From the NCBI RefSeq assembly GCF_016591715.1, contig NZ_AP024109.1, forward strand, positions 5,456,001-5,520,000: a stretch of 64,000 nucleotides of DNA, given 5' to 3'. The translations under genes were made by a program, and so were the position numbers. The number at the start of each line of letters is the position of its first letter. Within the stretch, counting starts at the first letter, position 1. The DNA comes from Mesorhizobium sp. J8. Its GTDB lineage: Bacteria; Pseudomonadota; Alphaproteobacteria; Rhizobiales; Rhizobiaceae. Shown here piece after piece: positions 34,125 through 55,376 of the stretch. The notes beneath the pieces were generated by a model. That model saw nothing but the letters and a program-made list of their open reading frames with translations. It had not been told where the DNA came from and made no database searches.

Positions 34125-34151
34125 TAGTCTGCGTGCCTTGTGTGAGGCTTG
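34125..34151 (-). promoter_or_regulatory. Two-half-site flagellar promoter upstream of motA
   Basis: On the minus strand CAAG (34151-34148), seven bases, CAAG (34140-34137), ten bases, then TATCC with TA at 34126-34125. The second half-site is 50 nt before the motA start. Same geometry as four other flagellar promoters in this window. Confidence 0.62.
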
Positions 34152-34173
34152 AATCGAAGGCGGCGAACGCGAT

Positions 34174-34200
34174 TCAGCTTCGCGCAAGGAAGTGACGCTA
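34174..34200 (+). promoter_or_regulatory. Two-half-site flagellar promoter upstream of the DUF1217 gene
   Basis: TCAG (34174-34177), seven bases, CAAG (34185-34188), ten bases, then TATTG with TA at 34199-34200. The second half-site is 49 nt before the TTG start at 34237. It is divergent from the motA promoter, with their outer half-sites 22 bp apart. Confidence 0.62.
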
Positions 34201-34236
34201 TTGTGCGAGGGATAGCTTCGGCCGGAGGCATGCCCT

Positions 34237-35358
34237 TTGCTCAGTACCTACACCAACTACCAGTTGATCGCCAGAGACATCCCCAAGTCTATCACCCGCA
34301 TCGAGCAGCAGCCGACGGTCGATCGCGACACCCAATACTATCTGGCCAACATCACCAAGGTGAAATCGATCGACGATTTCGTCAACAACGACCGCCTGTT
34401 CAAATATGCCATGAAGGCCTACGGACTGGAGGACATGGACTACGCCAAGGCCTTCATGGTCAAGGCACTGAAGGAAGGCGTCTCGGACCCCGACAGCTTC
34501 GCCAACAAACTGACCGACAAGCGCTACGCCCAGTTCGTCGCTGCCTTCAACTTCGCGGCCGATGGCGCCGATGCGACGGTCTACAACCCGACACAGCAGC
34601 AGGTTACGGCGAACTACGCCACACAGGCAGAGATCGCGGGTCTTGATCCGGATTCGGACTATGTGAAAGGCGAGACGACCTACTATCTCGCCAACATCAC
34701 CAAGGTGAAGTCGATCGACGACCTGATGTCGAACGACCGGCTCTACACCTACGCGCTGGCCGCGTTCGGCCTGGATTCGGCCACCGAGGACAAGGATCTG
34801 ATCAAGTCCGTCCTCCAAGGCGGCGTGAAGGATCCCGATAGCGTCGCCAACAAGCAGACCAACAAGGCCTATGCCGGGCTCGCCGCCGCTTTCAACTTTG
34901 CGCAGTACGGCGATACGACCACCACCCGCGTTGCGGCGCAGCAGCCGACGGTCGACATGTATCTGCGCCAGACATTGGAGGAGGACGCCGGCCAGACCAA
35001 TGAAGGCGTGCGGCTGGCGCTCTATTTCCAGCGCAAGGCGCCCGACATCACCAACTGGTACGACGTGCTCGCCGACACCGCTTTGGCCAGCGTGGTGCGC
35101 ACCGCGCTCGGACTGCCCGATTCCTTCGCCACCGCCGACATCGACAAGCAGGCGCAGCTCTTCGAGCAGAAGCTCGACATCAAGGACTTCACCGATCCCG
35201 AGAAGCTAGGCAAGTTCCTGACCCGCTTCACCAGCATGTACGAGATCGCCCACCCCACCTCGACGGCGGTGACTTCGGTCAGCGTGCTCTTCGCGCAGCC
35301 GACCACCATAGGCATCTCCACCGATCTGATGATGGCCATGCAGCAGTTGAAGTTCTGA
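34237..35358 (+). CDS. DUF1217 flagellar-locus protein with internal repeats
   Basis: A protein of 373 residues beginning at TTG 34237, chosen because GGAGG (34224-34228) lies eight bases before it and no ATG is near. Residues 32-110 and 147-225 are a clear tandem duplication: both contain YYLANITKVKSIDD followed by a helical block ending in AAFNFA. A third, degenerate unit runs from about residue 255 to 330. The DUF1217 family is found beside flgF in rhizobial flagellar clusters; its function is not established. No signal peptide or membrane segment. The repeat structure suggests an elongated helical scaffold or export chaperone. Confidence 0.87.
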   Translation: MLSTYTNYQLIARDIPKSITRIEQQPTVDRDTQYYLANITKVKSIDDFVNNDRLFKYAMKAYGLEDMDYAKAFMVKALKEGVSDPDSFANKLTDKRYAQFVAAFNFAADGADATVYNPTQQQVTANYATQAEIAGLDPDSDYVKGETTYYLANITKVKSIDDLMSNDRLYTYALAAFGLDSATEDKDLIKSVLQGGVKDPDSVANKQTNKAYAGLAAAFNFAQYGDTTTTRVAAQQPTVDMYLRQTLEEDAGQTNEGVRLALYFQRKAPDITNWYDVLADTALASVVRTALGLPDSFATADIDKQAQLFEQKLDIKDFTDPEKLGKFLTRFTSMYEIAHPTSTAVTSVSVLFAQPTTIGISTDLMMAMQQLKF

Positions 35359-35365
35359 GAAGATC

Positions 35366-36088
35366 ATGCAGGACAGCCTCTACGTCGCCCTTTCCTCTCA
35401 GATCGCGCTCGAGCGTCGTCTCGACACCATCGCCGACAACGTCGCCAACGCCTCGACCATCGGCTTTCGCGCCACCGGCGTGAAGTTCGAGGACGTGGTC
35501 TCGGGCACCGGGCCGAAATCGGTCTCCTTCGCCTCCTCCGGCAAGACTTATCTTTCCGGCGCGCATGGCGCGCTGACCGAAACCGGCAACCCGTTCGATT
35601 TCGCCATCCAGGGCGACGCTTGGTTCGCCATCGAGACGCCAGCCGGCACGGTGATGACGCGTGACGGCCGCTTCTCCATGAATGACAGCGGGGAATTGAT
35701 GTCGATCGAAGGCTATCCGGTGCTGGATAGCGGCGGCGCTCCCATCCAGCTCGATCCCCGCAACGGCCCGCCCAAGGCAGGCGCCGATGGCTCGCTCAGG
35801 CAGAACGACCAGCTGGTCGGCGCCATCGGCCTCTACAATTTCGATCCCGGCGAGAATTTCGTCCGCTACGGCAATTCGGGCATCGTGCCGGCGCGCACGC
35901 CCGAGCCCGTCACCGATCGTTCGGACGTCGGTGTCGCACAAGGGTTCCTGGAGGAATCGAACGTCAACCCGGTTCTGGAAATGACCCGGCTGATCCAGGT
36001 GCAGCGCGCTTTCGAGAACACGGCGGCGCTGATGCGGCAGACCGATTCCTCCACCGACGACGCGATCAAGACGCTCGGCTCGAAGTGA
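35366..36088 (+). CDS. flgF: Flagellar proximal rod protein FlgF
   Basis: A protein of 240 residues with the rod-family N-terminus (SSQIALERRLDTIADNVANAST) and C-terminal helix (NPVLEMTRLIQVQRAFENTAALM). The central part, GDAWFAIETPAGTVMTRDGRFSM, is typical of FlgF. Exported by the type III system into the periplasm, where it joins the rod with FlgB, FlgC and FlgG. It follows the DUF1217 gene by 7 bp and precedes fliI. Confidence 0.95.
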   Translation: MQDSLYVALSSQIALERRLDTIADNVANASTIGFRATGVKFEDVVSGTGPKSVSFASSGKTYLSGAHGALTETGNPFDFAIQGDAWFAIETPAGTVMTRDGRFSMNDSGELMSIEGYPVLDSGGAPIQLDPRNGPPKAGADGSLRQNDQLVGAIGLYNFDPGENFVRYGNSGIVPARTPEPVTDRSDVGVAQGFLEESNVNPVLEMTRLIQVQRAFENTAALMRQTDSSTDDAIKTLGSK

Positions 36089-36092
36089 CGGC

Positions 36093-37499
36093 ATGACGAC
36101 CGGCTCGTCCCTGTTGCGCGCTTCCGAGAGCCCGGCGGACACCGGGCGGACCGACAGGCTGGCCGCGCTCGAACGTGTCTGGCGGCGGTTCGATGATCCG
36201 CAGGCGCTGCTTGCGCGCGGCGGCCGCATCGCCGAGATATCGCCGACACATTACAAGGTCCGCGGCCTGTCCGGGATTGCTAGGCTGGGCGACATCGTCG
36301 AGCAGCGCGGCAAGGCCGGCGCGCGACGCGGCGAGATCGTCAAGATCGCCAGCGACGAGGTGGTGGTCGCGCCCTTCGAGCGCAGCGCCGATGCCGGCAT
36401 CGGCGACGCCGTCTTTCGCCGCGGCCCTCTCGCGGTCACGCCGCATGTCTCCTGGCGCGGCCGCGCCCTCGACGCCTTGACCCGCGTCATCGACGGCGGC
36501 CCGCCGCTGATCAGGCCGAATACGGCGGATGCAGTGCATGGTGCGACACCCGGCGCCCTGGCGCGCCAGCGCGTCGGCACCGGCTTCCTGACCGGCGTCA
36601 GGGTGATCGACATCTTCACCCCGCTCTGCTTCGGCCAGCGACTCGGCATTTTCGCCGGTTCCGGCGTCGGCAAGTCGACGCTGCTTGCCATGCTCGCCGG
36701 CGCCGAGGCCTTCGATACGGTGGTCGTGGCGCTGATCGGCGAGCGCGGTCGCGAGGTGCGCGAATTCCTCGAGGACACGATCGGCGCCGAGAGCATGGCC
36801 AAGACCGTCGCCGTCGTCGCCACCAGCGACGAAAGCGCCATGATGCGCCGGCGCGCGCCCGACACCGCCATGTGCGTGGCCGAGCATTTCCGCGACCAGG
36901 GTCATCGCGTGCTCCTGGTGCTGGATTCCATCACCCGTTTCGCGCATGCGCTGCGCGAGGTGGCGACCGGAACGGGCGAGCCGCCGGTCGCGCGCGGCTA
37001 TCCGGCCTCGGTCTTCACCGACCTGCCGAAGCTCCTCGAACGCGCTGGTCCGGGGGTTGAGGGCAAGGGATCGATTACCGCCATCATTTCGGTGCTGGTC
37101 GACGGCGACGACCATAATGATCCCGTCGCCGATTCGGTGCGCGGCATCCTCGACGGCCACGTCGTGCTCGACCGCTCGCTTGCCGAGCAGGGCCGTTATC
37201 CGCCGGTCAATCCGCTGTCGTCGATCTCGCGCCTTGCCGACAAGGCCTGGAGCCCCGAGCAGCGCATGCTCGTGACAAGGCTGAAATCGATGATCGCGCG
37301 TTTCGAGGATACGCGCGACATCCGTCTTTTGGGCGCCTACCAGAGCGGCGCCGACGCCGAGCTCGACAATGCGGTGCGCCAGGTGCCGCTGATCTACGAG
37401 GCGCTCACGCAATCGCCGAGGGACCGCGCATCCGCCGATCCGTTCGCCGACCTCGCCCGCCATCTCAAGGGGAAGCTGAATGGCGATCAAGGAGACTGA
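36093..37499 (+). CDS. fliI: Flagellum-specific ATPase FliI
   Basis: A protein of 468 residues. The Walker A motif GSGVGKST is at 189-196, and the Walker B strand is RVLLVLDSITRFAHALREV. The DUF-like N-terminus and the F1-ATPase-beta core are complete. FliI powers and orders substrate entry with FliH, whose gene is at 49093. Its last 20 nt overlap the next gene. Confidence 0.97.
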   Translation: MTTGSSLLRASESPADTGRTDRLAALERVWRRFDDPQALLARGGRIAEISPTHYKVRGLSGIARLGDIVEQRGKAGARRGEIVKIASDEVVVAPFERSADAGIGDAVFRRGPLAVTPHVSWRGRALDALTRVIDGGPPLIRPNTADAVHGATPGALARQRVGTGFLTGVRVIDIFTPLCFGQRLGIFAGSGVGKSTLLAMLAGAEAFDTVVVALIGERGREVREFLEDTIGAESMAKTVAVVATSDESAMMRRRAPDTAMCVAEHFRDQGHRVLLVLDSITRFAHALREVATGTGEPPVARGYPASVFTDLPKLLERAGPGVEGKGSITAIISVLVDGDDHNDPVADSVRGILDGHVVLDRSLAEQGRYPPVNPLSSISRLADKAWSPEQRMLVTRLKSMIARFEDTRDIRLLGAYQSGADAELDNAVRQVPLIYEALTQSPRDRASADPFADLARHLKGKLNGDQGD

Positions 37500-38268
37500 G
37501 CTCCAATATACCGAGCGCATGCTGCGCGACATGCTTGCCGAGGCCGAGGCGGCGGAGCGGGCCGAAGCCAACGCGGCAAGAACCGCTAGGGACAGGGCCG
37601 CGCATGCCAAGACACGGAAAACAGCAGCTCTCCTGACCAGAGCCGACAGGCCGCATCCGCCGCGGACATCCGCCGTCGGGACCGCCGACGTCGCGCAGGC
37701 CAGCCGCGATTCCGTGCTCGACGGGCTTTTTCCCCGCACCGAGTGGCCGCAGCCGCCGAAAGCCCAGTTCCCGCGCCTGGCAGACAGGAGCGCCGACCGC
37801 CGCACAGATTTCGTCATTGCCGCGCTCGGCATCACGCTCGGCCTGATCTGCGCGTTGTTTCCCTGGTACATCTTCCTCAACCAGGAGCAGTTCGGCGTTC
37901 AGACGATCAAGTTCGGCGGCAGCGGCAGCAATGCCGGACGCAAGGGCGGCGGCATCGTGGCCGAACGCAGCGGGCCGCTGACGGCCAAGGACGTCCCCAA
38001 TACCGATATCGACCTCTTTGCCACCGGAACGGTCGAGGACGACCCCGCGCCACCGCCCGCCGACCAGCCCTTCCCTGCCGCCGTCTCGGAATTCAAGATG
38101 GTGCATGTCGCCAACGGCCGCGCCATGATCGAGGACGATACCGGTCTGTGGCTGGTCCAGCGCGGCTCGGTGCTGCCCGATTCCAGCCGCGTCGCCGCGA
38201 TCGAGCAGCGCGGCGGCAAATGGGTGATCGTCACCAGCACCGACAAGGTGATCCCGCTCTCGAAATAG
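37480..38268 (+). CDS. Flagellar-locus single-span membrane protein of unknown function
   Basis: A protein of 262 residues whose start overlaps fliI by 20 nt. Residues 1-60 are a charged coiled-coil-like helix (RMLRDMLAEAEAAERAEANA), residues about 110-133 are a membrane span (FVIAALGITLGLICALFPWY), then a flexible region rich in Gly and Pro, and a C-terminal SH3-like beta domain from about residue 205 (MVHVANGRAMIEDDTGLWLV). The position after fliI is that of fliJ in other bacteria, but the membrane span argues against FliJ. A similar gene follows fliI in Sinorhizobium, from memory. Function unknown. Confidence 0.75.
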   Translation: MAIKETELQYTERMLRDMLAEAEAAERAEANAARTARDRAAHAKTRKTAALLTRADRPHPPRTSAVGTADVAQASRDSVLDGLFPRTEWPQPPKAQFPRLADRSADRRTDFVIAALGITLGLICALFPWYIFLNQEQFGVQTIKFGGSGSNAGRKGGGIVAERSGPLTAKDVPNTDIDLFATGTVEDDPAPPPADQPFPAAVSEFKMVHVANGRAMIEDDTGLWLVQRGSVLPDSSRVAAIEQRGGKWVIVTSTDKVIPLSK

Positions 38269-38297
38269 TTAAGCCGGGCCATGTGGCCCGCCCCGCG

Positions 38298-38324
38298 CAA
38301 GGTCCGCGCAAGACTGGCCGCCTA
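38298..38324 (+). promoter_or_regulatory. Two-half-site flagellar promoter upstream of flgB
   Basis: CAAG (38298-38301), seven bases, CAAG (38309-38312), ten bases, TAGTC with TA at 38323-38324. The two half-sites lie in a direct repeat, CGCGCAAG, with 11-bp period. The second ends 42 nt before the flgB start. It lies in the 86-bp gap between the membrane protein gene and flgB. Confidence 0.62.
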
Positions 38325-38354
38325 GTCTTGTGCGTACTTGCCCGGGAGATTCCC

Positions 38355-38735
38355 ATGGAACCGGTAAATCTTTTCGATCTCGCCACGCGGCAGTCGCAAT
38401 GGCTGGCCGTGCGCCAGTCGGCGATTGCCTCCAACATCGCCAATGCCAACACGCCGGGCTACACGGCCAACGACGTCGAGCCCTTCGAAAAGGTGCTCGA
38501 CCGGACCGCCGTGACGCTTGCCGCCACGCAGGCCGGCCACCTCGGCGCCGAAACGGCCAATGCCGGCTTCAACGTCAAGCCCGAGGATCCCGACGGCGCG
38601 ATCATGCCATCGAAGAACACCGTGGTTCTCGAACAGGAGCTGATGAAGGCCGGCGAGGTCCGCCGCTCCTTCGAGCTCAACACGGCGATCGTCAAGGCCT
38701 TCCATTCGATGATGACGATGGTGGTGAAGAGCTGA
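38355..38735 (+). CDS. flgB: Flagellar proximal rod protein FlgB
   Basis: A protein of 126 residues from the ATG at 38355, preceded by GGGAG. N-terminal rod signature [23 protein letters not shown]-terminal helix [22 protein letters not shown]. FlgB is the first rod subunit above the MS ring. It heads the flgB-flgC-fliE-flgG gene string. Confidence 0.95.
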
Positions 38736-38737
38736 CC

Positions 38738-39154
38738 ATGGACGCCCTCACCGCAGCCCTCAAAGTCGCGGCCTCTGGCCTTGGCGCCCAGTCGGAGCGC
38801 CTGCGCGTGGTCTCGGAAAACCTTGCCAACGCCCAGTCGATCGGCAGCACGCCGGGCGCCGATCCCTATCGCCGCAAGACGATCACCTTCCAGTCCGAGG
38901 TCGACCGCGCGACCGGCGGCTCGCTGGTGGAAGTCAGCGCGATCTCGCGCGATCCTTCGGACTTCCCGATCGAATTCCAGCCCGGCAACGAAGCCGCCGA
39001 CGCCAAAGGGTACGTCAAGATGCCCAACGTCAACACATTGGTCGAAATGGCCGACATGAGCGAGGCAAACCGCTCCTATGAAGCCAACCTGCAGGTCATC
39101 AAGCAGGCTCGCGATCTGATTTCCATGACCATCGACCTGATGAGGAACCAGTAA
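38738..39154 (+). CDS. flgC: Flagellar proximal rod protein FlgC
   Basis: A protein of 138 residues beginning at ATG 38738, two bases after the flgB stop. N-terminus [22 protein letters not shown]-terminal [20 protein letters not shown], both typical of FlgC. It overlaps fliE by one base. Confidence 0.95.
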
Positions 39155-39483
39155 TGATCGGCGGTATCGGGGCAATACAATTCAAGACGGCGGTTGACGG
39201 AGCGGAGCAGGCGTCACCAAACCTCTTGCAGGGCGGCGTCGGAACGCAGGCCGGCGAAAGCATCGGCAGCAGCTTCGCCGAAGTCCTCAGCCAGGCGGCG
39301 ACGAAAACCGTCAACACGCTGCAGGGTGCCGAGCAGATGTCGATCCAGGCGCTCAAGGGCGACGCCGACACCCGCCAGGTGGTCGATGCGGTGCTGAGCG
39401 CCCAACAGGCGCTGCAGACCACCATCGCCATCCGCGACAAGGTCGTGTCGGCCTATCTCGAAATCAGTCGCATGAGTATCTAG
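39154..39483 (+). CDS. fliE: Flagellar hook-basal body complex protein FliE
   Basis: A protein of 109 residues. The C-terminal half, VNTLQGAEQMSIQALKGDAD and QVVDAVLSAQQALQTTIAIR, is the FliE signature. It links the MS ring to the rod. Its ATG uses the last base of the flgC stop codon. Confidence 0.94.
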   Translation: MIGGIGAIQFKTAVDGAEQASPNLLQGGVGTQAGESIGSSFAEVLSQAATKTVNTLQGAEQMSIQALKGDADTRQVVDAVLSAQQALQTTIAIRDKVVSAYLEISRMSI

Positions 39484-39492
39484 GACCGCGTC

Positions 39493-40281
39493 ATGAAAGC
39501 CCTTGCCATCGCCGCCACCGGCATGAACGCCCAGCAGACCAACCTGGAAGTCATCGCCAACAACATCGCCAACATCAACACCACCGGCTACAAGCGGGCA
39601 CGGGCCGAATTCTCCGACCTGCTCTACCAGGTCGACCGCACGCAGGGCGTGCCCAACCGCTCCAACACCTCGCTGGTGCCGGAAGGCGTCTCGATTGGTC
39701 TCGGCGTCAAGACGACGGCCGTGCGCAACGTCCACACCCAGGGCGAGCTGGCCAGCACGGGCAACAGTTTCGATCTGGCCTTGACCGGCAGGGGCTGGTT
39801 CCAGATCCAGGGAGCCGACGGCGGCACGCTCTATTCGCGCGCCGGCGCCTTCAATACCAACGCCACCGGGCAGTTGGTGACCGTCGACGGCGCCGAGGTC
39901 ATCCCGGCCATCACCGTGCCGACCGACGCCGTCGAAGTCATCGTCAACAAGACCGGCCAGGTCTTTGCCCGCCTGGACGGTCAGACGAATTTGCAGTTGC
40001 TCGGCCAGCTTCAGATCGCCAACTTCGCCAACGAGGCTGGCCTGGCGCCGCTCGGCGACAACCTTTTCCAGGAGACGGCCGCCTCGGGTCCGGCCAATGT
40101 CGGCGTGCCAGGCGATCCGGGCTTCGCCACGATCCAGCAGGGTTACCTCGAATCCTCCAACGTCGATCCGGTCAAGGAAATCACCGAGCTGATCTCGGCG
40201 CAGCGCGCCTATGAAATGAACTCCAAGGTCATCCAGGCCGCAGACGACATGGCCTCGGTGGTCTCCAAGAACATCAGGTAA
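39493..40281 (+). CDS. flgG: Flagellar distal rod protein FlgG
   Basis: A protein of 262 residues, as usual for FlgG. N-terminal [20 protein letters not shown], a central [20 protein letters not shown], and C-terminal [20 protein letters not shown]. It builds the distal rod that crosses the peptidoglycan and outer membrane rings. Confidence 0.97.
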
Positions 40282-40284
40282 CGG

Positions 40285-40809
40285 ATGATGGCCGGGCCGA
40301 TCTCCTCCGCACTCCGTCGCACCGCGCTGGCCACCGTCCTGGTGGCCGCCGGCGCGCCGGCTTTCGCACAGGATGCGGCCGGCCAGTCGGCGAACCAGAT
40401 CGCCTCCGCCCAGGCGACCGGCGAGGCCGTGCTGATCCCCAACCGGGTCATCTATCCCGGCGAGACCATCGAGCCCGCCTCGCTCAAGCAGGTGACGCTC
40501 ATCCCCGGCAAGCACAAGCCCGACGGCATGGCGACGCGCTCCGAGGAGCTTCAGGGCAAGGTCGCCAAGCGCACGCTTCTGCCTGGACGCTACATTCCGG
40601 TCACGGCGATTCGCGACGCCTGGCTGGTCGAGCAGGGCGCTTCCGTGCAGGTCTATTTCACCGCCGGCGCACTCACCATTTCGGCGGCCGGGGTCACGTT
40701 GCAGCCAGGCGCTGCCGGCGACCAGATCAAGATCCGCAACATCGACAGCGGCAAGATTATCTCGGGCACCGTGATGGCCGACGGCACCATCAAGGTCGGC
40801 GCTTCGTGA
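40285..40809 (+). CDS. flgA: Flagellar P-ring assembly chaperone FlgA
   Basis: A protein of 174 residues with a signal peptide (LATVLVAAGAPAFAQ) ending at about residue 29. The SAF-like domain follows (VLIPNRVIYPGETIEPASLK, GKVAKRTLLPGRYIPV). It is a periplasmic chaperone that helps assemble FlgI. Overlaps flgI. Confidence 0.93.
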   Translation: MMAGPISSALRRTALATVLVAAGAPAFAQDAAGQSANQIASAQATGEAVLIPNRVIYPGETIEPASLKQVTLIPGKHKPDGMATRSEELQGKVAKRTLLPGRYIPVTAIRDAWLVEQGASVQVYFTAGALTISAAGVTLQPGAAGDQIKIRNIDSGKIISGTVMADGTIKVGAS

Positions 40810-42047: not shown

Positions 42048-42055
42048 GCACGCCG

Positions 42056-45984: not shown

Positions 45985-46011
45985 CAAGGTCCGCGCAACC
46001 TTCGCCTCTTA
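45985..46011 (+). promoter_or_regulatory. Two-half-site flagellar promoter upstream of flaB
   Basis: CAAG (45985-45988), the seven bases GTCCGCG, CAAC (45996-45999), ten bases, then TAACT with TA at 46010-46011. The first 14 bases equal those of the flgB site. It lies 171 nt before the flaB start, much farther than in the other units, and implies a leader of about 160 nt. Confidence 0.5.
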
Positions 46012-46181: not shown

Positions 46182-47252
46182 TTGGCAAGCATCATGACGA
46201 ACGCTGCGGCGTTGACTGCACTTCAAAGTCTCAACGCCACCAACAAATCGCTCGAGCAGACGCAGGCCCGGATTTCGACCGGCTACCGGGTCTCGGAGGC
46301 CTCCGACAACGCCGCCTATTGGTCGATCGCCACCACGATGCGCTCAGACAACTCGGCGCTGTCGACGGTGCAGGACGCGCTCGGCCTCGGCGCCTCGAAG
46401 GTCGACACCGCCTATACCGGCATGAACAACGTCCTTTCGACGATCGGCCAGATCAAGACCAAGCTACTGTCGGCGGTGGGCCAGTCGGATGCCAACAAGG
46501 CCAAGACGCAGACCGAAATTACCGCGCTGCAGGCGCAGATGAAATCCTTCGCCGACGCGGCCACCTTCTCTGGCTCGAATTATCTTTCGGTCACGTCCAC
46601 GCAAGTCGCAACCAACAATGACGGCGTCCAGCCGGACGCCAAGATCGTCTCCTCGTTCAACCGCTCTTCGTCGGGCGCCATCTCGCTCGGAACCATCGAC
46701 ATCAACGTCGAGAGCACCAAGCTGTTCGATTCCGGTCTCTCCACCGCCGTCAAGAACCAGGGCATTCTCGATCGCCAGACGTCGATCTATGCCACCGCCG
46801 CGGACCAGTCGGCATACGACGCCGCCTACGCGGCCTCGATCGCCGCCGGCGGCACCGACATCGCCGCCAACACCGCCGGCCAAGCCGCGGTGACGGGCAC
46901 GCCGGTCAAGATCGACAACGTCTCCGCCTTCAATCTCGACATCACGGCGACGGGCGTGACCGACGACATCATCACGCAGATGGTCACCAAGATCGACAAC
47001 GTCATGAGCCAGCTTACGGACGCCGCCACCGTGCTCGGCGCCGCCAAGAGCTCGATCGACCTGCAGAAGACCTTCACGCAGAGCCTGATGGACTCCATCG
47101 ATCGCGGCGTCGGCCAGCTCGTCGATGCCGACATGAACAAGGAATCCACCCGCCTGCAGGCTCTCCAGGTCCAGCAGCAGCTCGGCATCCAGTCCCTGTC
47201 GATCGCCAACAGCTCCTCGCAGTCGATCCTGCAGCTGTTCAAGAACGGCTAA
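46182..47252 (+). CDS. flaB: Flagellin FlaB
   Basis: A protein of 356 residues, starting at TTG 46182: the codon aligns with the ATG of flaA (MASIMTNAAALTALQSLNAT) and has AAGGAG (46168-46173) at good spacing. Ends closely match FlaA; the central region is 25 residues longer and different (TSTQVATNNDGVQPDAKIV, AADQSAYDAAYAASIAAGG). It is the product of a flagellin duplication. A TTG start in a highly expressed structural gene is unusual and may limit its amount relative to FlaA. Confidence 0.95.
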   Translation: MASIMTNAAALTALQSLNATNKSLEQTQARISTGYRVSEASDNAAYWSIATTMRSDNSALSTVQDALGLGASKVDTAYTGMNNVLSTIGQIKTKLLSAVGQSDANKAKTQTEITALQAQMKSFADAATFSGSNYLSVTSTQVATNNDGVQPDAKIVSSFNRSSSGAISLGTIDINVESTKLFDSGLSTAVKNQGILDRQTSIYATAADQSAYDAAYAASIAAGGTDIAANTAGQAAVTGTPVKIDNVSAFNLDITATGVTDDIITQMVTKIDNVMSQLTDAATVLGAAKSSIDLQKTFTQSLMDSIDRGVGQLVDADMNKESTRLQALQVQQQLGIQSLSIANSSSQSILQLFKNG

Positions 47253-47277
47253 GCCGCCCGATCACCATCGACCGACG

Positions 47278-47364: not shown

Positions 47365-47391
47365 TCATCCTCGCACAAGCTTCGCGGTCTA
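47365..47391 (+). promoter_or_regulatory. Two-half-site flagellar promoter upstream of fliF
   Basis: TCAT (47365-47368), the seven bases CCTCGCA, CAAG (47376-47379), ten bases, TAGTC with TA at 47390-47391. The second half-site is 51 nt before the GTG start of fliF. The eleven bases CCTCGCACAAG recur exactly before flgE. Confidence 0.62.
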
Positions 47392-47429
47392 GTCTTCCGG
47401 CGGACAGTCATGCTGGGAGCGGTTGAATC

Positions 47430-49088
47430 GTGCCGGAACAGATCCAGGGCATCATCGCGAATTTGAAGAGCTTCGGCGTGAGACGCCTGGCGCTCATGGG
47501 CGGCATCGCGGCCCTGGTCATGGCCGTCATCGGCATCGCGTCCGTCTATCTCAACCGTCCGGCCTATGAGACGCTCTATGTCGGCCTCGAGCGTTCCGAC
47601 GTCAACCAGATCGGCCTGGTGCTGGCCGATGCCGGCATCGGTTTCGATGTCGGCTCCGACGGCACCTCCGTGCTGGTGCCGGCCGGAACCACCGCGCAGG
47701 CCCGCATGCTGCTTGCCGAGAAGGGCCTGCCGACCAGCGCCAATGCCGGCTATGAGCTGTTCGACAATGTCGGCTCGCTCGGCCTCACCTCCTTCATGCA
47801 GCAGATCACCCGCGTGCGTGCGCTGGAAGGCGAGATCGCGCGCACCATCCAGTCAATCTCCGGCGTCAAGGCGGCGCGCGTCCACATCGTCATGTCCGAG
47901 CGCGCCAATTTTCGCCGCGACGAGCAACAGCCCTCCGCCTCGGTGGTCATCCGCTATGCCGGCAACGATGCCGAAAAGAGCGCCATGTCGATCCGCCACC
48001 TCGTCGCCGCGGCTGTTCCGGGCCTGTCGGCCGACAAAGTCACGGTGCTCGATTCCAACGGCAATCTTTTGGCCGCCGGCGACGACCCGTCCAACACCAG
48101 CGCGGCGCGCACCCTCGGCGTCGAGCAGACGGTCGAGGCGCAGATCGGCGACAACATCCGCCGCGCGCTCACTCCCTATCTCGGCCCGGACAATTTCCGC
48201 GCCAGCGTCAAGGCCGACGTCAACACCGACAGCCGCCAGACCGAGGAGACAATCTTCGATCCGAACTCGCGCGTCGAGCGTTCGGTGCAGTCGGTGAAGA
48301 CCAATGAGGCGAGCAACCAGAAGCAGGCCTCGACCCCGACCAGCGTCGAGCAGAACCTGCCCGAGACGCAGACCACCACCACCGAGGGACCGCAATCCTC
48401 CTCGCAGAACGACCGCAAGGAAGAGATCACCAACTACGAGATCAACTCGAAGAAGATCGCGACCGTTTCGAACGGCTACACGGTCAACAAGATGTCGATC
48501 GCGGTCGTCGTCAACCAGGATCGTCTGAAGACCATCCTTGGCAAGGACGCCACCCCGGAGCAGATCGCCAAGCGCGTCGCCGATATCCAGAAGATGGTCG
48601 CCTCGGCGACCGGCTTCGACGACAAGCGCGGCGACGTCATCGACGTGTCGGCGGTCGAGTTCATCAACGGCCTCGACGGCGAGCCGATCGAACAGCCGGG
48701 TATCCTGGCCTCGATCGGCACCTATACCGGCACGCTGATCAATGCCGCTGCCTTCATTGTCGTCGTCTTCCTGGTGGCCTTCTTCGGCCTGAAGCCGATG
48801 GCCGCCGCGCTGACGGCGTCGGCGAAGCCCGCGGCCATTGCCGGACCGAGCTTCGACGACGTGCAGCGTTCGTTGCCGACGCCCGACGCGCCAGTCGCCG
48901 CGATCACCGCCGAGGCTCCGGCCGGCGCCCAGTCTGGCGCGCGCGCCGGCGCAACCCCGCTCGACGACCTGCGTCAGAAGATCCGGCCGGCGCCGCAGGA
49001 GCGGCTTGCCCGCATGGTCGACCTCAACGAGGAGCGCACCGCGCAGATCCTGCGCAAATGGGCGGCAGCCCCGGAAGCCGTGGGTTAG
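47430..49088 (+). CDS. fliF: Flagellar MS-ring protein FliF
   Basis: A protein of 552 residues beginning at GTG 47430 with GGGAG ten bases upstream. Two membrane spans: near residues 22-42 (LALMGGIAALVMAVIGIASV) and about 435-455 (LINAAAFIVVVFLVAFFGL). Ring-building motifs include AYETLYVGLERSDVNQIG and AARVHIVMSERANF. The C-terminal tail (RLARMVDLNEERTAQILRKW) is the FliG-binding site. It opens the fliF-fliH-motB-motC-fliK unit. In Sinorhizobium fliF lies next to visN, so this position differs. Confidence 0.97.
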   Translation: MPEQIQGIIANLKSFGVRRLALMGGIAALVMAVIGIASVYLNRPAYETLYVGLERSDVNQIGLVLADAGIGFDVGSDGTSVLVPAGTTAQARMLLAEKGLPTSANAGYELFDNVGSLGLTSFMQQITRVRALEGEIARTIQSISGVKAARVHIVMSERANFRRDEQQPSASVVIRYAGNDAEKSAMSIRHLVAAAVPGLSADKVTVLDSNGNLLAAGDDPSNTSAARTLGVEQTVEAQIGDNIRRALTPYLGPDNFRASVKADVNTDSRQTEETIFDPNSRVERSVQSVKTNEASNQKQASTPTSVEQNLPETQTTTTEGPQSSSQNDRKEEITNYEINSKKIATVSNGYTVNKMSIAVVVNQDRLKTILGKDATPEQIAKRVADIQKMVASATGFDDKRGDVIDVSAVEFINGLDGEPIEQPGILASIGTYTGTLINAAAFIVVVFLVAFFGLKPMAAALTASAKPAAIAGPSFDDVQRSLPTPDAPVAAITAEAPAGAQSGARAGATPLDDLRQKIRPAPQERLARMVDLNEERTAQILRKWAAAPEAVG

Positions 49089-49092
49089 GCCA

Positions 49093-49719
49093 ATGGCTTC
49101 CGCAGCCCTCTTCGATCTCCTGCCCGATTTCGGGTCGCGGACCTCGGCACCCAGCCAGGCGCCGAAGGATCGCGACGTCCAACATGTTCCGGCCGCGCCG
49201 GCGCCGCAGGCCGACATCGGCGCGCTGATCGCAGAGGCGGTGGCTGACGCGGAGGCGGCGCTCGAAGCGCGCCTTGCGCTCTCCCACCAGGCGGCGCTCG
49301 ACGCTGAGCGCCAGGCCAATGACGAAGCCGCGAAAGCGTTCCTCGAAAGCTTCGGCGGCGATCTCGGTGCCGCCGTCGCGACGCGCATCGAAGCCATGGA
49401 GCGGCGCGTTGCCGAGCTTGCCGGCGCGACCGTCGCCCGCATCGTCAGCGGCCTTCTCAGCGACGACCTGCAGCAACGGTCGCTGCAGGCCCTTTCGCAA
49501 GCCATCAGCGCCGCGGTCGCCGACAGCGAGGCCGTGCGCATCGGCGTCCGGGGCCCGCTCTCGCTGTTCGAGCCGTTGAAGGCGGCGCTCGGGTCCCGCG
49601 CCGCCAATCTCGACTTCACCGAGGCGCCGGGCTTCGACCTGACCGTCACCATCGACGAAACTGTGTTCGAGACGCGTATCGCCGAGTGGTCGGCGTCCTT
49701 GTCTGAGGTCCTGTCATGA
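49093..49719 (+). CDS. fliH: FliH-like flagellar export ATPase regulator
   Basis: A protein of 208 residues from ATG 49093, four bases after fliF. A variable Pro-rich N-terminus, a long Ala/Glu-rich helix at residues 45-115 (AVADAEAALEARLALSHQAA), and a C-terminal alpha/beta domain (VRIGVRGPLSLFEPLKAALG, then FDLTVTIDETVFETRIAEW) as in FliH/SctL stator proteins. It should hold FliI in check and tether it to the C-ring. The family is very divergent, so the name rests on architecture and position. Confidence 0.75.
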   Translation: MASAALFDLLPDFGSRTSAPSQAPKDRDVQHVPAAPAPQADIGALIAEAVADAEAALEARLALSHQAALDAERQANDEAAKAFLESFGGDLGAAVATRIEAMERRVAELAGATVARIVSGLLSDDLQQRSLQALSQAISAAVADSEAVRIGVRGPLSLFEPLKAALGSRAANLDFTEAPGFDLTVTIDETVFETRIAEWSASLSEVLS

Positions 49720-51131
49720 GCGCCGTCGACCACGCCGACCCCCGGCACGAGATCATCATCGTCAAGCGCAATCACGACGGTCATGACGACGGTCACCATG
49801 GCGGCGTGTGGAAGATCGCTTTCGCGGACTTCATGACGGCGATGATGTGCTTCTTCCTCGTCATGTGGCTGATCAACGCCGCCAATGAGCAGACCAAGGC
49901 AGCCGTCGCCAGCTATTTCAATCCGGTCGAGCTGATCGACCGCAACTCCAGCCGCAAGGGCCTGGAAGACCTCGGTGACGGCCCGAGCAAGGTCGGGCTG
50001 ACCGCGGACAACCCGCAGCAGGGCGCGACCAAGGCGGGCGACGACGGCAAGGGCGGCGCGGGTTCCTCCGAACGCCGCCAGACGAAGGACGGGGCGCAGG
50101 ATGCCCAACTGTCCGATGAGAAGCTGTTTGCGGATCCCTACGCGGTGCTGGCGGAGATCGCCGCCGATACGGGCGTGATGCAGAATGTCAGCGCCAAGGG
50201 CGAAGGCGGCGCCCAGACGGCCGGTCCGGCGACCGGCGCCTCCGGCGGCGAATCCTACCGCGATCCCTTCGCGCCGGATTTCTGGTCGCAGCAGGTGGCG
50301 GCGCCCGACGCCGAGGCAACCGCCGAGCGCGCCAGGATCGACGGTGATCCGGCCAAGCCCGGCGAGAAAGTCGCCACCGTCGCGGTGCCGAAGGTGAAGG
50401 CCGTTCCGGCTGCACCTGCGCTCACGGCCGCGCCGCTGGAGCCGCTGGCGACCCCGGAAGGCACCGACGCCAGGAGCGGGCAAAACACAGCGTCGGGCAA
50501 GGCCGAGAAGCCGTCGAACGAAGCGTCCGGGAGCGACAAGGCACAGGATCGGAAAGCACAAGCCGACAAGCGCGAGGCAGCGGCCGGCGACGCCAAGGCC
50601 GAGGCGGCGGAGGCGAAAAAGGCCGAACAAGGGCAGACCACCGAGAGCGATAAGACGCCAAGCAAAGCCGCCCTCCAGGAAGCGGCTGATATCAAGAAGG
50701 AACTCGCCAAGGCATTCCTGCCCGGCGAGAAGCTCGCCGACGGCGTCTCGGTCGAGGCCACCGACAAGGGTGTCGTGATTTCGATCACCGACCAGCTCGA
50801 TTTCGGCATGTTCGAGATCGGCTCGGCCATGCCGCGCCGCGAGTTGGTGCTGGCGATGGAAAAGATCGGCCGCATCATCAACGAGAGGAAGGGCACCATC
50901 ACCATCAGCGGCCATACTGACGCGCGACCGTTCCGCAGCGACACATACGACAACTGGCGGCTGTCCACCGCGCGCGCCCATTCGGCCTACTACATGCTGG
51001 TGCGCGGCGGCGTCGACGAAAGCCGCATCACCGAGGTCGCGGGCTTCGCGGACCGGCAGCCCAAGATCGCATCCGATCCGATGGCGGCCGCGAACCGGCG
51101 CATCGAAATCCTGATGACGGCCGGCGGATGA
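49716..51131 (+). CDS. motB: Flagellar motor stator protein MotB
   Basis: A protein of 471 residues. Single span at about residues 34-54 with the proton-carrying Asp38 in WKIAFADFMTAMMCFF. A very long, low-complexity periplasmic linker (about residues 90-330, rich in Ala, Lys, Glu and Asp) precedes an OmpA-like peptidoglycan-binding domain (TITISGHTDARPF, NWRLSTARAHSAY). The linker is longer than in enteric MotB. It overlaps fliH and motC by 4 bp on each side. Confidence 0.95.
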   Translation: MSAVDHADPRHEIIIVKRNHDGHDDGHHGGVWKIAFADFMTAMMCFFLVMWLINAANEQTKAAVASYFNPVELIDRNSSRKGLEDLGDGPSKVGLTADNPQQGATKAGDDGKGGAGSSERRQTKDGAQDAQLSDEKLFADPYAVLAEIAADTGVMQNVSAKGEGGAQTAGPATGASGGESYRDPFAPDFWSQQVAAPDAEATAERARIDGDPAKPGEKVATVAVPKVKAVPAAPALTAAPLEPLATPEGTDARSGQNTASGKAEKPSNEASGSDKAQDRKAQADKREAAAGDAKAEAAEAKKAEQGQTTESDKTPSKAALQEAADIKKELAKAFLPGEKLADGVSVEATDKGVVISITDQLDFGMFEIGSAMPRRELVLAMEKIGRIINERKGTITISGHTDARPFRSDTYDNWRLSTARAHSAYYMLVRGGVDESRITEVAGFADRQPKIASDPMAAANRRIEILMTAGG

Positions 51132-52567
51132 AAGGCAGGAGCGCCATCGGCGGCGCGATAGCGCTGCTATTGCTCGCGGCAGGGTCGCCATCGGCGGCCT
51201 TCGCGCAGGACGCGCTGCAGCCCTATCAGCTGGTGCGTTCGCTGCAGCTGATCCAGGACCGCATTGCCGGCGGCGATCATGCCGCGCTGCCGATGCAGGC
51301 GAAGCTCCTCGAGATGATCGACACGCGGATGCGCAGCGCCAGTGCCGAGGATTTCAAGGAGCCGAAGAATTTCCGCGCCTTGCTGGTCTACGGCATGAGC
51401 GGCGGCAATCCGGTGACGGTCGCGGCGGCGGCTTCGCGCGCGGTGACCGACCCGCAAAGCCTCGCCATCGCCAAGGGCGTCGTCGCCTATCTGAACGGCC
51501 GGCCGGCCGAGGCGATCGACTTGCTGAAGCCGATCGATCCGATGAGCGTGCCCGCCGACATCGGCGCCTTCCTAGGGCTGGTCAAGGGCTCGCTGCTTGC
51601 AACCGATGACCCCGCAACGGCGCTTGGGCTGCTCGACGAAGCGCGCCTGCTCAGCCCCGGCACGCTGGTCGAGGAGGCCGCACTGCGCCGCTCCGTCGGC
51701 ATCGCGGCCGCGCGGGGCGACGCTGCCCGCTTCGCGCTGGCCTCGACCCAGTATGTCGCGTCCTATCTCTATTCGCCTTACGCCAGCCAGTTCGCCGATG
51801 CCTTCGTTTCCGGCGTCATCACGCTCCACATGGCGATCAGCCAGGACAAGATCGCCGACATCACCTCGATGATGGATCCCGAGCGCGAGAAGGTGATCTA
51901 CCTGCGGATCGCGCGCCACGCCGCGATCGACGGCATGACGGAGCTCTCAGCCTTCGCCTCGGCCAAGGCGGAGCTGGGCCGCAACGGCAACGGCAACCAG
52001 GATGACCCGCGCACTCAACTCTATTCAGGCCTTTCCACCATGACATCGGCCAGTGTCGACGAGGTGCGCGCCAAGCTCGGCAAGATCGACCGCAGCCAGC
52101 TTTCGCAAGGCGACCGCGACCTGCTTGATGCGGCGCAGGCTGTCGCTGGCGAGGTGGTGGCTCCGGTGAAAGCGGCCGCCAAGGCAAAAGCTGCGCCGCC
52201 GGCCGCCGCACAAGGCGACGACCCGAAATCCGCGGCTGAGGCCGCGGCCGATCCGGCCAATGCGGACCTGCCTCCGGTGGAAGGAGCGATGCCCGACCAG
52301 CCAGCTGTCGCATCAAGCGATCCACCGGTCGCGGAGCGCGATCCGGTGAAAGACGCGCCCACGGCTTCGCCGTCACCCGCCCCGCAGCCGGCGCAGGCAA
52401 CGGCCGAGACGCCGCCGGCCTCAGTATCGGCTGACGCGGCCCCGATGGTGCAGGCATCCGCGCCGGCGGCGACGCCCGATGCGCAAGACCCGATCGATGC
52501 GGCGGTGACCAGCACGCGGCGTCAGCTCGACCAGATCGACCAATTGCTCGGAGCAGCTCCCAAATGA
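51128..52567 (+). CDS. motC: Periplasmic motor protein MotC
   Basis: A protein of 479 residues with a signal peptide (GGAIALLLLAAGSPSAAFAQ). The first 340 residues form a helical domain (LQPYQLVRSLQLIQDRIAGG, then KNFRALLVYGMSGGNPVTV) as in rhizobial MotC. The C-terminal 130 residues are Ala/Pro-rich and end with a short helix (TSTRRQLDQIDQLLG). MotC binds MotB in the periplasm and needs MotE for folding. Part of the fliF operon. Confidence 0.9.
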   Translation: MKGRSAIGGAIALLLLAAGSPSAAFAQDALQPYQLVRSLQLIQDRIAGGDHAALPMQAKLLEMIDTRMRSASAEDFKEPKNFRALLVYGMSGGNPVTVAAAASRAVTDPQSLAIAKGVVAYLNGRPAEAIDLLKPIDPMSVPADIGAFLGLVKGSLLATDDPATALGLLDEARLLSPGTLVEEAALRRSVGIAAARGDAARFALASTQYVASYLYSPYASQFADAFVSGVITLHMAISQDKIADITSMMDPEREKVIYLRIARHAAIDGMTELSAFASAKAELGRNGNGNQDDPRTQLYSGLSTMTSASVDEVRAKLGKIDRSQLSQGDRDLLDAAQAVAGEVVAPVKAAAKAKAAPPAAAQGDDPKSAAEAAADPANADLPPVEGAMPDQPAVASSDPPVAERDPVKDAPTASPSPAPQPAQATAETPPASVSADAAPMVQASAPAATPDAQDPIDAAVTSTRRQLDQIDQLLGAAPK

Positions 52568-53913
52568 CCAGCGTCAACCCGACCCTGCAAGGCCTTGCTT
52601 CGACCCAGTCGCAGCCTCGGCAGCACGCTGCCGGCGGCAAGGACAAGGATCAGAATTTCGGTGAGATGGTGCAAGGCGCGGAAAAGCCCGGTCGGCCGCG
52701 GGATAGACATGCCGCCGGACCGGTAGGGCCGGACGCGCATCCCGCAAAGCGCTCATCTGCCTCGGGCAAAGAGGAGCCGGGGGAGAAAACCGCTCCGTCG
52801 AAAGGGACCGCGGGAAAGGCCGCGAGGAGCGGTGCCCAGGTTGCGGACACCAAGCCAGGGACGGACGAAGATACCACAGCGCAAACCGGGGATTCGGCGC
52901 CGCTGCAAGACCGTTTGCCGCTCCTGATGGCGCTGAGCGACATGAAGCACTTCGCGCAGACTTCGGGCGCCGACGGCAAGGCCGCCGACGGTAAAGATGG
53001 CGCCGGCGGGCGCGGATCGCTGCAATTGTCGCTGCGTCCGGGCAAGCGCGCGGCGCCCGACGGTTCCGGCGAGCCGCAGCCGCGATCCGACCGTTCGGCG
53101 GCGGCTGAGAACGGCGGTCCTGACTTCGGGCAGAAGCCGGTAAGGGCCGACGCGGCGCTCGGCATGCCGAACCGCAGCGATACCAAAATCGTGCCGACGC
53201 AAGGGAATGAACCGCGGACCGACAGCCCGGAAGCGCCGCGAGGCTGGCGGCCGGCTTCCGCCTCCAAGGCTTCGCAACAATCGCAGGCCACGCAGCAGAC
53301 GCCGGCCAAGCCGTCTTCTTCCGCTCCACGCATGGAGGTCGTCAGCCAGCAGAGCTACCCGGCTCCGGCGCAGAACCCGATCGGCCAGACGGCATCGGCG
53401 CTGATTGAAGCGCTTGCCTCCGACAAGAGTGTTCAGCAGGCCTTTGCAAGCGCCTCGGCGGGCTTGCAGACGACCAATTCTGTTGCCGTTCCGACACATG
53501 TGCTGAAGATCGAGCTCCACCCTTCCGAGCTTGGATCGGTCACCGCCAGCCTGCGACTCTCGGGCGAGCAACTTTCGATTGAGATGAAGCCCGAGACACA
53601 CGAGGCATACCGCCGTCTCACCGCCGACAGCGACGCCATCGTCAAGTCCATGCGCAGCCTCGGCTTCGATGTCGACAAGGTGACGATCCTGCAACCCTCG
53701 ATAGCAGTACATGCGGCCGGCCGCACCGACGCGACCAGCGCCATGCCGATGTCGACTGGCCGCGACCAGCCTTCATTCCAGCCCGGGAACTCGGGCGGCA
53801 ACAGCGCTGGCGGCGAGCGGCAACCGGGAAGGAACGATGGCCATGGCGCACAGGAATTCGCTCGCGCCGCTTCGCCTCTTCGCGAGCGTGCTGACGACGA
53901 TATGTATATCTAG
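52564..53913 (+). CDS. fliK: Flagellar hook-length control protein FliK (MotD)
   Basis: A protein of 449 residues. The first 330 are low-complexity and charged, as expected for the molecular ruler; the C-terminal Flg_hook domain is clear (HVLKIELHPSELGSVTASLR, LSIEMKPETHEAYRRL, SLGFDVDKVTIL). In Sinorhizobium this gene was first called motD and later shown to be FliK. Its final 77 nt overlap the lytic transglycosylase gene in another frame. Confidence 0.9.
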   Translation: MTSVNPTLQGLASTQSQPRQHAAGGKDKDQNFGEMVQGAEKPGRPRDRHAAGPVGPDAHPAKRSSASGKEEPGEKTAPSKGTAGKAARSGAQVADTKPGTDEDTTAQTGDSAPLQDRLPLLMALSDMKHFAQTSGADGKAADGKDGAGGRGSLQLSLRPGKRAAPDGSGEPQPRSDRSAAAENGGPDFGQKPVRADAALGMPNRSDTKIVPTQGNEPRTDSPEAPRGWRPASASKASQQSQATQQTPAKPSSSAPRMEVVSQQSYPAPAQNPIGQTASALIEALASDKSVQQAFASASAGLQTTNSVAVPTHVLKIELHPSELGSVTASLRLSGEQLSIEMKPETHEAYRRLTADSDAIVKSMRSLGFDVDKVTILQPSIAVHAAGRTDATSAMPMSTGRDQPSFQPGNSGGNSAGGERQPGRNDGHGAQEFARAASPLRERADDDMYI

Positions 53914-54433
53914 CCTTGCCGTCGGAGCGGCCGGCGCCGCCGGCAATCCCTGCGAGCCGGAGATCCTGCGCGCCGCGGACCGCTACGGCGTGCCGGCCGG
54001 CATTCTTTATGCGGTCGGCCTGACAGAGACCGGAAAGAAAGGCAGCCTTCAGCCTAACGCATTGAACATAGAAGGGAAAGCTGTCTTCCCGCATAGCCGC
54101 GACGAGGCTCTGGCGACCTTCGAGAATGCCCGTCGTGAAGGCAAGGTACTGATCGATCTCGGCTGCATGCAGATCAACCAACACTATCATGGCGATCATT
54201 TCCGCAGCGTCGAGGACATGCTCGACCCGCATCAAAATGTCGACTACGCGGCACGCTTCCTGGCAAGCCTGCATGCCAGGCACATGACCTGGTCGATGGC
54301 CGTCGCCCGCTATCATGCCGGCCCCGACAACGACCCGGCGCAGAAGGTCTATGTCTGCCGCGTCATCGCCAACATGGTCGCCACCGGCTTCGGTAAATGG
54401 ACGCCGAATGCCAGCGCTTTCTGCAATCAGTAG
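53837..54433 (+). CDS. Flagellar-locus lytic transglycosylase
   Basis: A protein of 198 residues from ATG 53837 (another ATG six bases later), inside the end of fliK. The signal peptide (SVLTTICISSLAVGAAGAAG) places it in the periplasm. The SLT-type fold has the catalytic Glu64 in GLTETGKKGS, GCMQINQHYH and VARYHAGPD. It may open the peptidoglycan for the rod, since no flgJ gene is in the window. A gene of this type lies just before rem in Sinorhizobium, from memory. Confidence 0.86.
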   Translation: MAMAHRNSLAPLRLFASVLTTICISSLAVGAAGAAGNPCEPEILRAADRYGVPAGILYAVGLTETGKKGSLQPNALNIEGKAVFPHSRDEALATFENARREGKVLIDLGCMQINQHYHGDHFRSVEDMLDPHQNVDYAARFLASLHARHMTWSMAVARYHAGPDNDPAQKVYVCRVIANMVATGFGKWTPNASAFCNQ

Positions 54434-54655
54434 TTGAGCGCGCTCAAACGCCGATCGACCGTGGCCGACATACGCTCCGGTGCCAATATCGTCAGCCGAC
54501 AGATCGGCGCGAATACACCTGCTCAACCGCCTTTATTACGCCTCCCGAAAAACTCCCAAGAAAATAGCTACAAGAAATGATGGTTTTTCAGGATTCGCCC
54601 GGCCGGGTACCCCTTTCCGCACGGGGCAAGTGAATTTGATTCGGAGGGCGGGCCG
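54434..54655 (+). promoter_or_regulatory. Regulatory gap before rem with a perfect 14-bp palindrome
   Basis: TTGAGCGCGCTCAA (54434-54447) directly follows the transglycosylase stop codon and is perfectly palindromic. The remainder is AT-rich in the middle (54540-54595) and must hold the VisNR-dependent rem promoter. The half-site pattern of the other flagellar promoters is absent. The palindrome could be an operator or part of a terminator; it has no T-run. Confidence 0.45.
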
Positions 54656-55324
54656 ATGATCGTGATCGTTGACGAGCGAGAGCTCGTGACAGAGGGCTAC
54701 TCCTCACTTTTCGATCGCGAGGGAGTGGCCACGGCCGGCTTCGCGCCAGGCGAATTCGGCGAATGGGTGAGTTCCGCCGCCGACACCGATCTCAGATCCG
54801 TCAGGGCCTTTCTCATCGGCGACTGCCGCGACGGCGCGATATCACCGCGCCAGATCCGCGACCGCACCGGCGCGCCGGTGATCGCGCTCAGCGAACAGCA
54901 CTCGCTCGAACATACGTTGCGGCTGTTCGAAAGCGGCGTCGACGATGTCGTCCGCAAGCCTGTCCATATCCGCGAGATTCTCGCCCGCATCACCGCCATC
55001 CGCCGCCGCGGCTCCGAAGAAGCCGCCTACACCGAGGTTGGCGCGATGCGCATCTTCATGGACGGCCGCGATCCGGAGATCGACGGCGAACCGCTGCCGC
55101 TGCCGCGGCGCGAGCGGCGCATTCTGGAATATCTGGCCAGCAACCGCGGCCGGCGCGTGACCAAGACGCAGGTCTTCAACGCCATCTACGGCATCTTCGA
55201 CGAAGAGGTCGAGGAGAACGTGGTGGAGAGCCACATCTCGAAGCTGCGCAAGAAGCTGCGTGAGAAGCTCGGCCACGACCCGATCGATTCCAAGAGGTTC
55301 CTCGGCTACCGGCTGGTGTTTTGA
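54656..55324 (+). CDS. rem: OmpR-type orphan response regulator Rem
   Basis: A protein of 222 residues, preceded by GGAGG. The receiver-like domain (residues 1-115) is divergent: [15 protein letters not shown] supplies the acidic pocket and GDCRDG at about 54-59 may hold the acceptor Asp, and [14 protein letters not shown] keeps the Lys. The C-terminal winged helix ([38 protein letters not shown]) is of OmpR/PhoB type. In Sinorhizobium Rem is the growth-phase-dependent activator of class II flagellar genes, itself controlled by VisNR. No histidine kinase is nearby. Confidence 0.93.
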
Positions 55325-55349
55325 TGGGACTCGAAAGGCACATCCCGCG

Positions 55350-55376
55350 CCAGCCTCGCACAAGACACGAGGCATA
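55350..55376 (+). promoter_or_regulatory. Two-half-site flagellar promoter upstream of flgE
   Basis: CCAG (55350-55353), the seven bases CCTCGCA, CAAG (55361-55364), ten bases, TAATTT with TA at 55375-55376. The second half-site is 53 nt before the flgE start. Best -10 match of the set. Confidence 0.62.

Follow-up and report, generated by a model that had tools for sequence, protein, structure and literature searches.

A predicted Rem box precedes flagellar genes of Mesorhizobium sp. J8 and tracks the regulator Rem across its order

Introduction

Activators of the PhoB/OmpR type use tandem operators at class II promoters, e.g. the pho box, in which two direct repeats 11 bp apart, with the unit CTGTCAT and an A/T-rich spacer, end about 10 bp before the -10 element and replace the -35. 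The CtrA box of alphaproteobacteria (half-sites TTAA) has a 4-N7-4 spacing, is read by an OmpR-family regulator and has flagellar genes among its targets. The present work concerns a predicted operator that shares these features, here called the Rem box, found before flagellar transcription units in a 64,000-nucleotide stretch of the Mesorhizobium sp. J8 genome (the window, i.e. positions 5456001-5520000 of one 6.69-Mb contig). It differs from the pho box in its unit, CMAGCYT, and spacer, CGCR, and from the CtrA box in its half-sites, YCAG and CAAG; none of the window sites matches TTAA-N7-TTAA. From comparison with other genomes, the sites are very probably operators of Rem, used for class II activation of flagellar units.

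Published work describes Rem of Sinorhizobium meliloti as directly responsible for class II transcription (PMC9812332, PMC8429497) and as active without phosphorylation (PMC9812332), in which it would differ from PhoB/OmpR-type systems. VisNR are described there as acting via rem (PMC8429497, PMC4018554), and Rem relatives as present in Bradyrhizobium (LafR) and Azorhizobium (PMC8429497, PMC9812332, PMC8639532). A candidate site for FeuP, another rhizobial response regulator, in S. meliloti, TTCA-N7-TTCA, has the same spacing with other half-sites and genes; the same source also treats CtrA motifs, and its section on the FeuP site gives three de novo motifs, the Rem box not being among them (PMC3616915). 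The Rem box consensus was not found in the open literature searched, whose reach stopped short of the primary Rem, FtcR and LafR papers (Rotter 2006, Leonard 2007, Mongiardini 2017). The kind of element, an OmpR/PhoB-type class II operator, is known; priority for this particular operator is not established.

Results

A shared box before flagellar transcription units

The original prediction, made from the window alone, placed five sites with a 4-N7-4-N10-TA geometry before motA, the DUF1217/flgF operon, flgB, fliF and flgE, and named the OmpR-type protein encoded at 54656 as their likely reader. On re-reading of the sequence all five sites are present with that geometry, and the regulator does have receiver and Trans_reg_C domains. 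The start codons follow the second half-site at 43-53 nt, compared with the proposed 42-53 nt, an agreement to within one base. The predicted sites, rem and the predicted targets are as follows.

34121..34151, minus strand: Rem box (predicted) and -10 of motA, CAAGCCTCACACAAG (CAAG-CCTCACA-CAAG, N10, TATCCC); orthologous sites in distant genomes and S. meliloti
34174..34204, plus strand: Rem box (predicted) and -10 of the DUF1217/flgF operon, TCAGCTTCGCGCAAG (TCAG-CTTCGCG-CAAG, N10, TATTGT)
38298..38328, plus strand: Rem box (predicted) and -10 of flgB, CAAGGTCCGCGCAAG (CAAG-GTCCGCG-CAAG, N10, TAGTCT); orthologous sites exist
47365..47395, plus strand: Rem box (predicted) and -10 of fliF, TCATCCTCGCACAAG (TCAT-CCTCGCA-CAAG, N10, TAGTCT)
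55350..55380, plus strand: Rem box (predicted) and -10 of flgE, CCAGCCTCGCACAAG (CCAG-CCTCGCA-CAAG, N10, TAATTT)
54656..55324, plus strand: rem, OmpR-type response regulator (Response_reg and Trans_reg_C domains)
33212..34087, minus strand: motA, predicted target (TIGR03818)
34237..35358, plus strand: DUF1217 protein, first gene before flgF, predicted target (PF06748; exact start uncertain)
38355..38735, plus strand: flgB, predicted target (Flg_bb_rod), within the open frame 37743-38735; FlgB annotated equivalently in L263 and L265
47430..49088, plus strand: fliF, predicted target (TIGR00206)
55417..56673, plus strand: flgE, predicted target (FlgEFG subfamily above cut-off, FlgE models below theirs); FlgE annotated beside rem in L263 and L265

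Three details of the proposed pattern needed revision. The first half-site, given as YCAG/CAAG, holds in four of the five sites, but reads TCAT at fliF; the second, CAAG, is invariant among the five. The seven bases between the half-sites have the proposed length, but are conserved (consensus CYTCGCR) rather than free, the full box being YCAG-CYTCGCR-CAAG, i.e. two 11-bp units. The terminal TA is present, but is better described as part of a -10 element NANNNT, with A at -11 and T at -7.

A sixth site lies 9.3 kb beyond the window, at genome positions 5529311-5529337, with the ATG of flhA (FHIPEP family) 48 bp downstream. In the whole genome the pattern YCRNNYTCRCRCAAGN9HTA has four exact matches, all preceding flagellar genes (three window sites and flhA). 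When one mismatch is allowed there are 15 matches, compared with 11 for the reversed pattern, so looser forms are uninformative in a single genome. The alternative form MANNNYSRSRCAAGN10TANNNT gives seven matches, five of them before flagellar genes, and none for the control; the two non-flagellar matches are at 3707447 and 6473773, both on the minus strand. The former (L236, 1501-1530) is distant from the flagellar cluster and has no open frame of more than 70 aa close behind it; it is a possible extra target or a chance match. Both patterns were derived from window sites, and the fair tests are therefore the flhA site and the relatives. All patterns and scores used in this work were built from the six own-genome sites; the reversed-pattern controls and the genomes lacking Rem are free of that bias.

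Occurrence of the box and of Rem across genomes

Exact matches to CANNYTCRCRCAAGN10TA were counted across genomes, with the reversed pattern as control, Rem assigned at E<=1e-40 and FliF searched in the same genomes. Within a sample of 297 genomes of the order, the 83 with Rem have 109 matches versus 10 for the control, including 55 versus 7 in the 70 of them outside the own family. The 142 genomes with FliF and without Rem show no excess (16 versus 19), and the 72 with neither have 7 versus 3. In the own family (199 genomes) the counts are 510 versus 21 for the 165 Rem-positive genomes and 13 versus 3 for the other 34. Because the excess is limited to genomes with Rem, the motif tracks Rem rather than flagella as such. 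Outside the order the comparison has little reach, Rem being found at the same threshold in 1 of 240 genomes of a class sample, namely the own genome alone.

The 13 matches in Rem-negative family genomes are spread over 10 genomes, and 12 of them were inspected. Only G712, an 87% complete assembly, has sites at flagellar genes, its two matches preceding a DUF1217 gene and a fliF gene; rem is therefore probably missing from that assembly. Of the other ten, seven are internal to long open frames, and one of the seven also sits 100 bp ahead of an alanine dehydrogenase gene; a further match, in G708 (66% complete), is upstream of a sugar transferase gene, and the last two are followed by no long frame.

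Upstream regions of orthologous genes and the -10 element

In stretches of 39 other genomes motA, flgB, fliF, flgE and flhA were placed by tblastn, and the 220 bp upstream of each were scored. Most of these stretches were chosen around exact matches, so this larger set leans towards the motif; the count was repeated on 28 segments chosen by the position of rem only (G253 and G261 omitted), with p values taken against random windows of the same segments. In these rem-centred segments sites at p<0.01 precede motA in 8 of 9 cases, flgB in 11 of 12, fliF in 7 of 13, flgE in 7 of 12, flhA in 7 of 12 and rem in none of 28. The larger, partly selected set, in which flgB of G211 is counted twice, has motA sites at p<0.01 in 16/17 (a faulty G223 row excluded). 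Orthologous sites thus precede all five flagellar genes in distant families.

When sites are chosen by the 15-mer alone, 49 of 58 rem-centred upstream regions qualify. Among these 49, 22 have TA at offset 10, compared with no more than 5 for each of the other offsets between 0 and 21; 39 carry A at -11 and 36 carry T at -7. For the larger set, which was partly selected, the values are 42/81 for TA at offset 10 and, own sites excluded, 64/76 for A and 55/76 for T. The recurrence of the -10 element independently of the choice of the 15-mer is the best evidence that the sites are promoters. A logo was made from the upstream regions after 11 of 92 had been dropped (score 8 or less), its set omitting DUF1217, rem, FlgE matches below 45% identity and matches beginning after residue 20. 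It has no classical -35; some 10 bp separate the end of the box from the -10, and the box, as judged from the latter, would occupy the place of the -35. In the larger set the identity of the sites to themselves is 54% at a shift of 11 bp and at most 37% at shifts of 5-10 and 12-21.

Close relatives, Sinorhizobium meliloti and Phyllobacterium

Among 80 named loci gathered by Rem match, the nearest being Mesorhizobium, 74 allowed fliF to be located and 79 allowed flgE. The strict form of the site precedes fliF in 73 of the 74 loci, and relaxing the first C brings in the remaining one. At flgE the site lies within 130 bp of the start in 73 of 79 loci and at -159 to -232 in the remaining six, all Mesorhizobium (L019, L025, L031, L039, L041, L060), where an intact box stands some 90-165 bp farther upstream than it typically does, an arrangement resembling an insertion between promoter and gene. 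The position of the DUF1217/flgF box is conserved in L267-L274, with CA instead of TA in L267 and L273.

In S. meliloti CP090106 sites scoring >=13 precede fliF (by 175 bp), motA, DUF1217 (CA for TA), flgB, flgE and flhA, the last unannotated there and recognised by its frame; another stands some 320 bp upstream of the gene annotated as first in the motB operon. In this sequence the flagellins, rem and visN have no site within 260 bp. Five matches lie elsewhere, one of them 259 bp before a globin-coupled sensor gene ahead of che genes. The box is thus present before flagellar genes of an organism in which Rem is described as a direct class II activator (PMC9812332, PMC8429497). CP090106 (L263/L266) is labelled as plasmid pSymB of S. 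meliloti Ak57, is 3.72 Mb long and carries the flagellar cluster; it may be a mislabelled chromosome. A 211-kb plasmid carries the cluster in Phyllobacterium zundukense; sites stand before motA, flgB, fliF, flgE and, weakly, flhA, and none scoring over 13 before DUF1217.

Genomes with two flagellar systems

Two or more FliF matches occur in 24 Rem-positive genomes, of which 20 were sampled, taking 20 kb around the better-scoring FliF of each (400 kb in total). These other FliF clusters contain no Rem box site scoring >=18, one at >=16 and two at >=14, compared with 31, 55 and 74, respectively, in 1.12 Mb around rem. The motif TTAA-N7-TTAA, the CtrA box, has a density of 11 per 100 kb in the other FliF clusters of the 20 two-system genomes (0.33 in shuffles) and of 2.6 per 100 kb in the sampled rem neighbourhoods (0.13 in shuffles), which belong to the larger, motif-leaning set. 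Each cluster carries mainly its own box, the split in CtrA boxes being a matter of degree, since rem neighbourhoods hold TTAA-N7-TTAA too.

The Rem protein and the region before rem

The name Rem follows from the family of the protein, its position beside flgE and an S. meliloti ortholog with 71% identity. In 38 aligned Rems the recognition-helix residues E191, H193, S195, R198 and K199 are invariant and K196 is present in 37, with variation at 188, 190, 192 and 194; positions 191, 193 and 195 are D, F and C in the own CtrA. Identity to the commonest residue averages 0.83 over 185-200, 0.76 over 144-222 and 0.62 over the receiver. This conservation would fit one operator read by one protein. 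A Rem-like regulator is also encoded on a Microvirga plasmid (L264, 19959-20627); within 20 kb of it no flagellar gene is annotated.

Autoregulation of rem by the box was considered and rejected, there being no site at p<0.01 before rem in 35 other genomes and a p of 0.14 for the own rem. The level p<0.05 is reached in five of these 35 genomes (about two expected) and in three of the 28 rem-chosen segments. In two members of one family a NCAG-N7-CAAG-N10-TA site some 180 bp upstream of rem (p 0.016 in G090, L168, and 0.049 in G124, L210/L211) is a possible case of autoregulation. L165 (G245, ~1676357-1677061) has an exact box ahead of a cheY-like response-regulator gene some 0.7 kb before rem, and G100 has an exact match at a similar distance; rem may possibly be autoregulated by way of an operon in the genus of L165. 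TTAA-N7-TTAA occurs within 400 bp before rem in 7 of 36 genomes and is not found before the own rem.

Other features of the window

The flagellar cluster is bordered, at 27558-29152 on the plus strand, by genes for two LuxR-type regulators, probably VisN and VisR. A search for RNA elements gave no Rfam match at gathering score within 33000-64000. A weak candidate box lies inside the 3' end of flhB:

29752..29782, minus strand: weak candidate box before a 145-aa ORF, CCATGTACAAGCAAG, N10, TAGCGT

S. meliloti and three further members of the family have a better match, CCATGTTTGCRCAAG-N10-TAGTGT, at this position; the site may reflect constraint on FlhB coding or may be an internal Rem promoter. 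A degenerate box at 45985 on the plus strand, CAAGGTCCGCGCAAC with TAACTT and a second half CAAC, lies 197 bp before the flagellin at 46182. Other weak matches are at 31772 (minus strand) and 38287, 40474 and 46591 (plus strand).

Discussion

The box, its geometry, its conservation and its link to rem are all observed, and the assignment of the box to Rem is supported by the comparative tests. What the original prediction had inferred from spacing within one cluster is borne out by the comparison: the excess of matches is confined to Rem-positive genomes, the box is nearly absent from second flagellar clusters, and it recurs in S. meliloti. The expected enrichment before motility genes is likewise found in the own genome and its relatives, strict matches preceding flagellar genes and exceeding controls only where Rem is present.

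Most likely, two Rem molecules would bind head to tail on the two 11-bp units (CCAGCYT-CGCR / CAAGSTT). The pair would occupy the predicted operator YCAGCYTCGCRCAAG on one face of the helix, over roughly -37 to -23 and in the place of a -35, the position relative to the transcription start being reckoned from the -10 element. PhoB activates transcription in the class II mode; by analogy Rem may, through contact with the polymerase, hold sigma-70 RNA polymerase on a -10 element that lacks a good -35. The motA, DUF1217-flgF, flgB, fliF, flgE and flhA units would thereby be switched on together, if the sites act, as seems likely, in activation.

Several observations weigh against this assignment. 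No exact match is present in 33 of the 83 Rem-positive genomes of the order sample or in 22 of the 165 Rem-positive family genomes, several of which have degenerate sites, and 9 of the 58 rem-centred upstream regions have no site above the cut-off. The 11-bp likeness is partly built in, since the matrix by which sites were chosen covers 15 of the 18 compared columns, and the figure is thus more a description of the box than a test of it. Co-occurrence alone is unable to separate Rem from a co-inherited regulator. Finally, the motif published for FtcR of Brucella melitensis, TGTGGGCA, is present in none of the 58 rem-centred flagellar upstream regions, a comparison that did not take in Brucella itself.

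It may be that the box is bound by some other DNA-binding protein, co-inherited with the Rem-type flagellar system, and that Rem acts elsewhere. Correlation does not tell such regulators apart; an 11-bp direct repeat in the place of the -35 is, however, what PhoB-like and OmpR-like proteins use, and Rem is the OmpR-type protein of the cluster, so that this alternative is unlikely. The difference between the box and the published FtcR motif (PMC9456535) speaks in favour of the alternative. VisNR, the one regulator compared for co-occurrence (through VisN), were rejected as the binder on the distribution of VisN. In the sample, 12 of the 13 genomes belonging to the family encode a VisN-like protein, compared with 3 of the 284 remaining ones, matched at E 7e-16 to 7e-18. 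The box excess reaches Rem-positive genomes in which no VisN-like protein was found, outside the family, where VisN-like proteins are rare.

That the motif is instead the promoter of a dedicated flagellar sigma factor, with no activator site, would accord with the fixed distance to the -10 and the lack of a classical -35 in the logo. A conserved 15-bp block with 11-bp self-similarity is, however, unlike a -35, and the -10 resembles the sigma-70 type (A at -11, T at -7), making this reading very improbable. Chance or composition, i.e. a loose pattern picked out by eye in G+C-rich gaps, can be given hardly any weight: CAAG and TA are short, and one-mismatch matches in the own genome number 15 against 11 for their control, but strict matches precede flagellar genes, are kept across families and exceed controls only in genomes with Rem. 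Binding by Rem thus remains the preferred interpretation.

FtcR is here presumed to be the Rem ortholog of Brucella melitensis. The motif claimed for it by ChIP-seq is 8 bp long without a repeat, unlike the Rem box, was derived from 118 of 363 peaks and was confirmed by gel shift at ftcR and betI (PMC9456535). In the larger set it is absent from all 94 flagellar upstream regions (one a faulty slice) and all 36 rem upstream regions. Either FtcR differs, or TGTGGGCA is not its flagellar operator.

If Rem does read the box, a predicted operator, with its register and -10 element, becomes available for the flagellar master regulator of rhizobia and Agrobacterium, and Rem regulons would be readable from sequence and testable base by base. 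The published FtcR motif TGTGGGCA is put in question in a testable manner. The comparison also provides a simple account of the separate control of two flagellar systems in one cell. On balance it seems somewhat probable that an ancient promoter code has been kept with Rem across the order and helps to separate the two flagella, with CtrA and Rem reading operators that share the 4-N7-4 geometry and differ in their half-sites, each regulator acting chiefly at its own cluster; in that case TGTGGGCA would not be what FtcR reads at flagellar genes.

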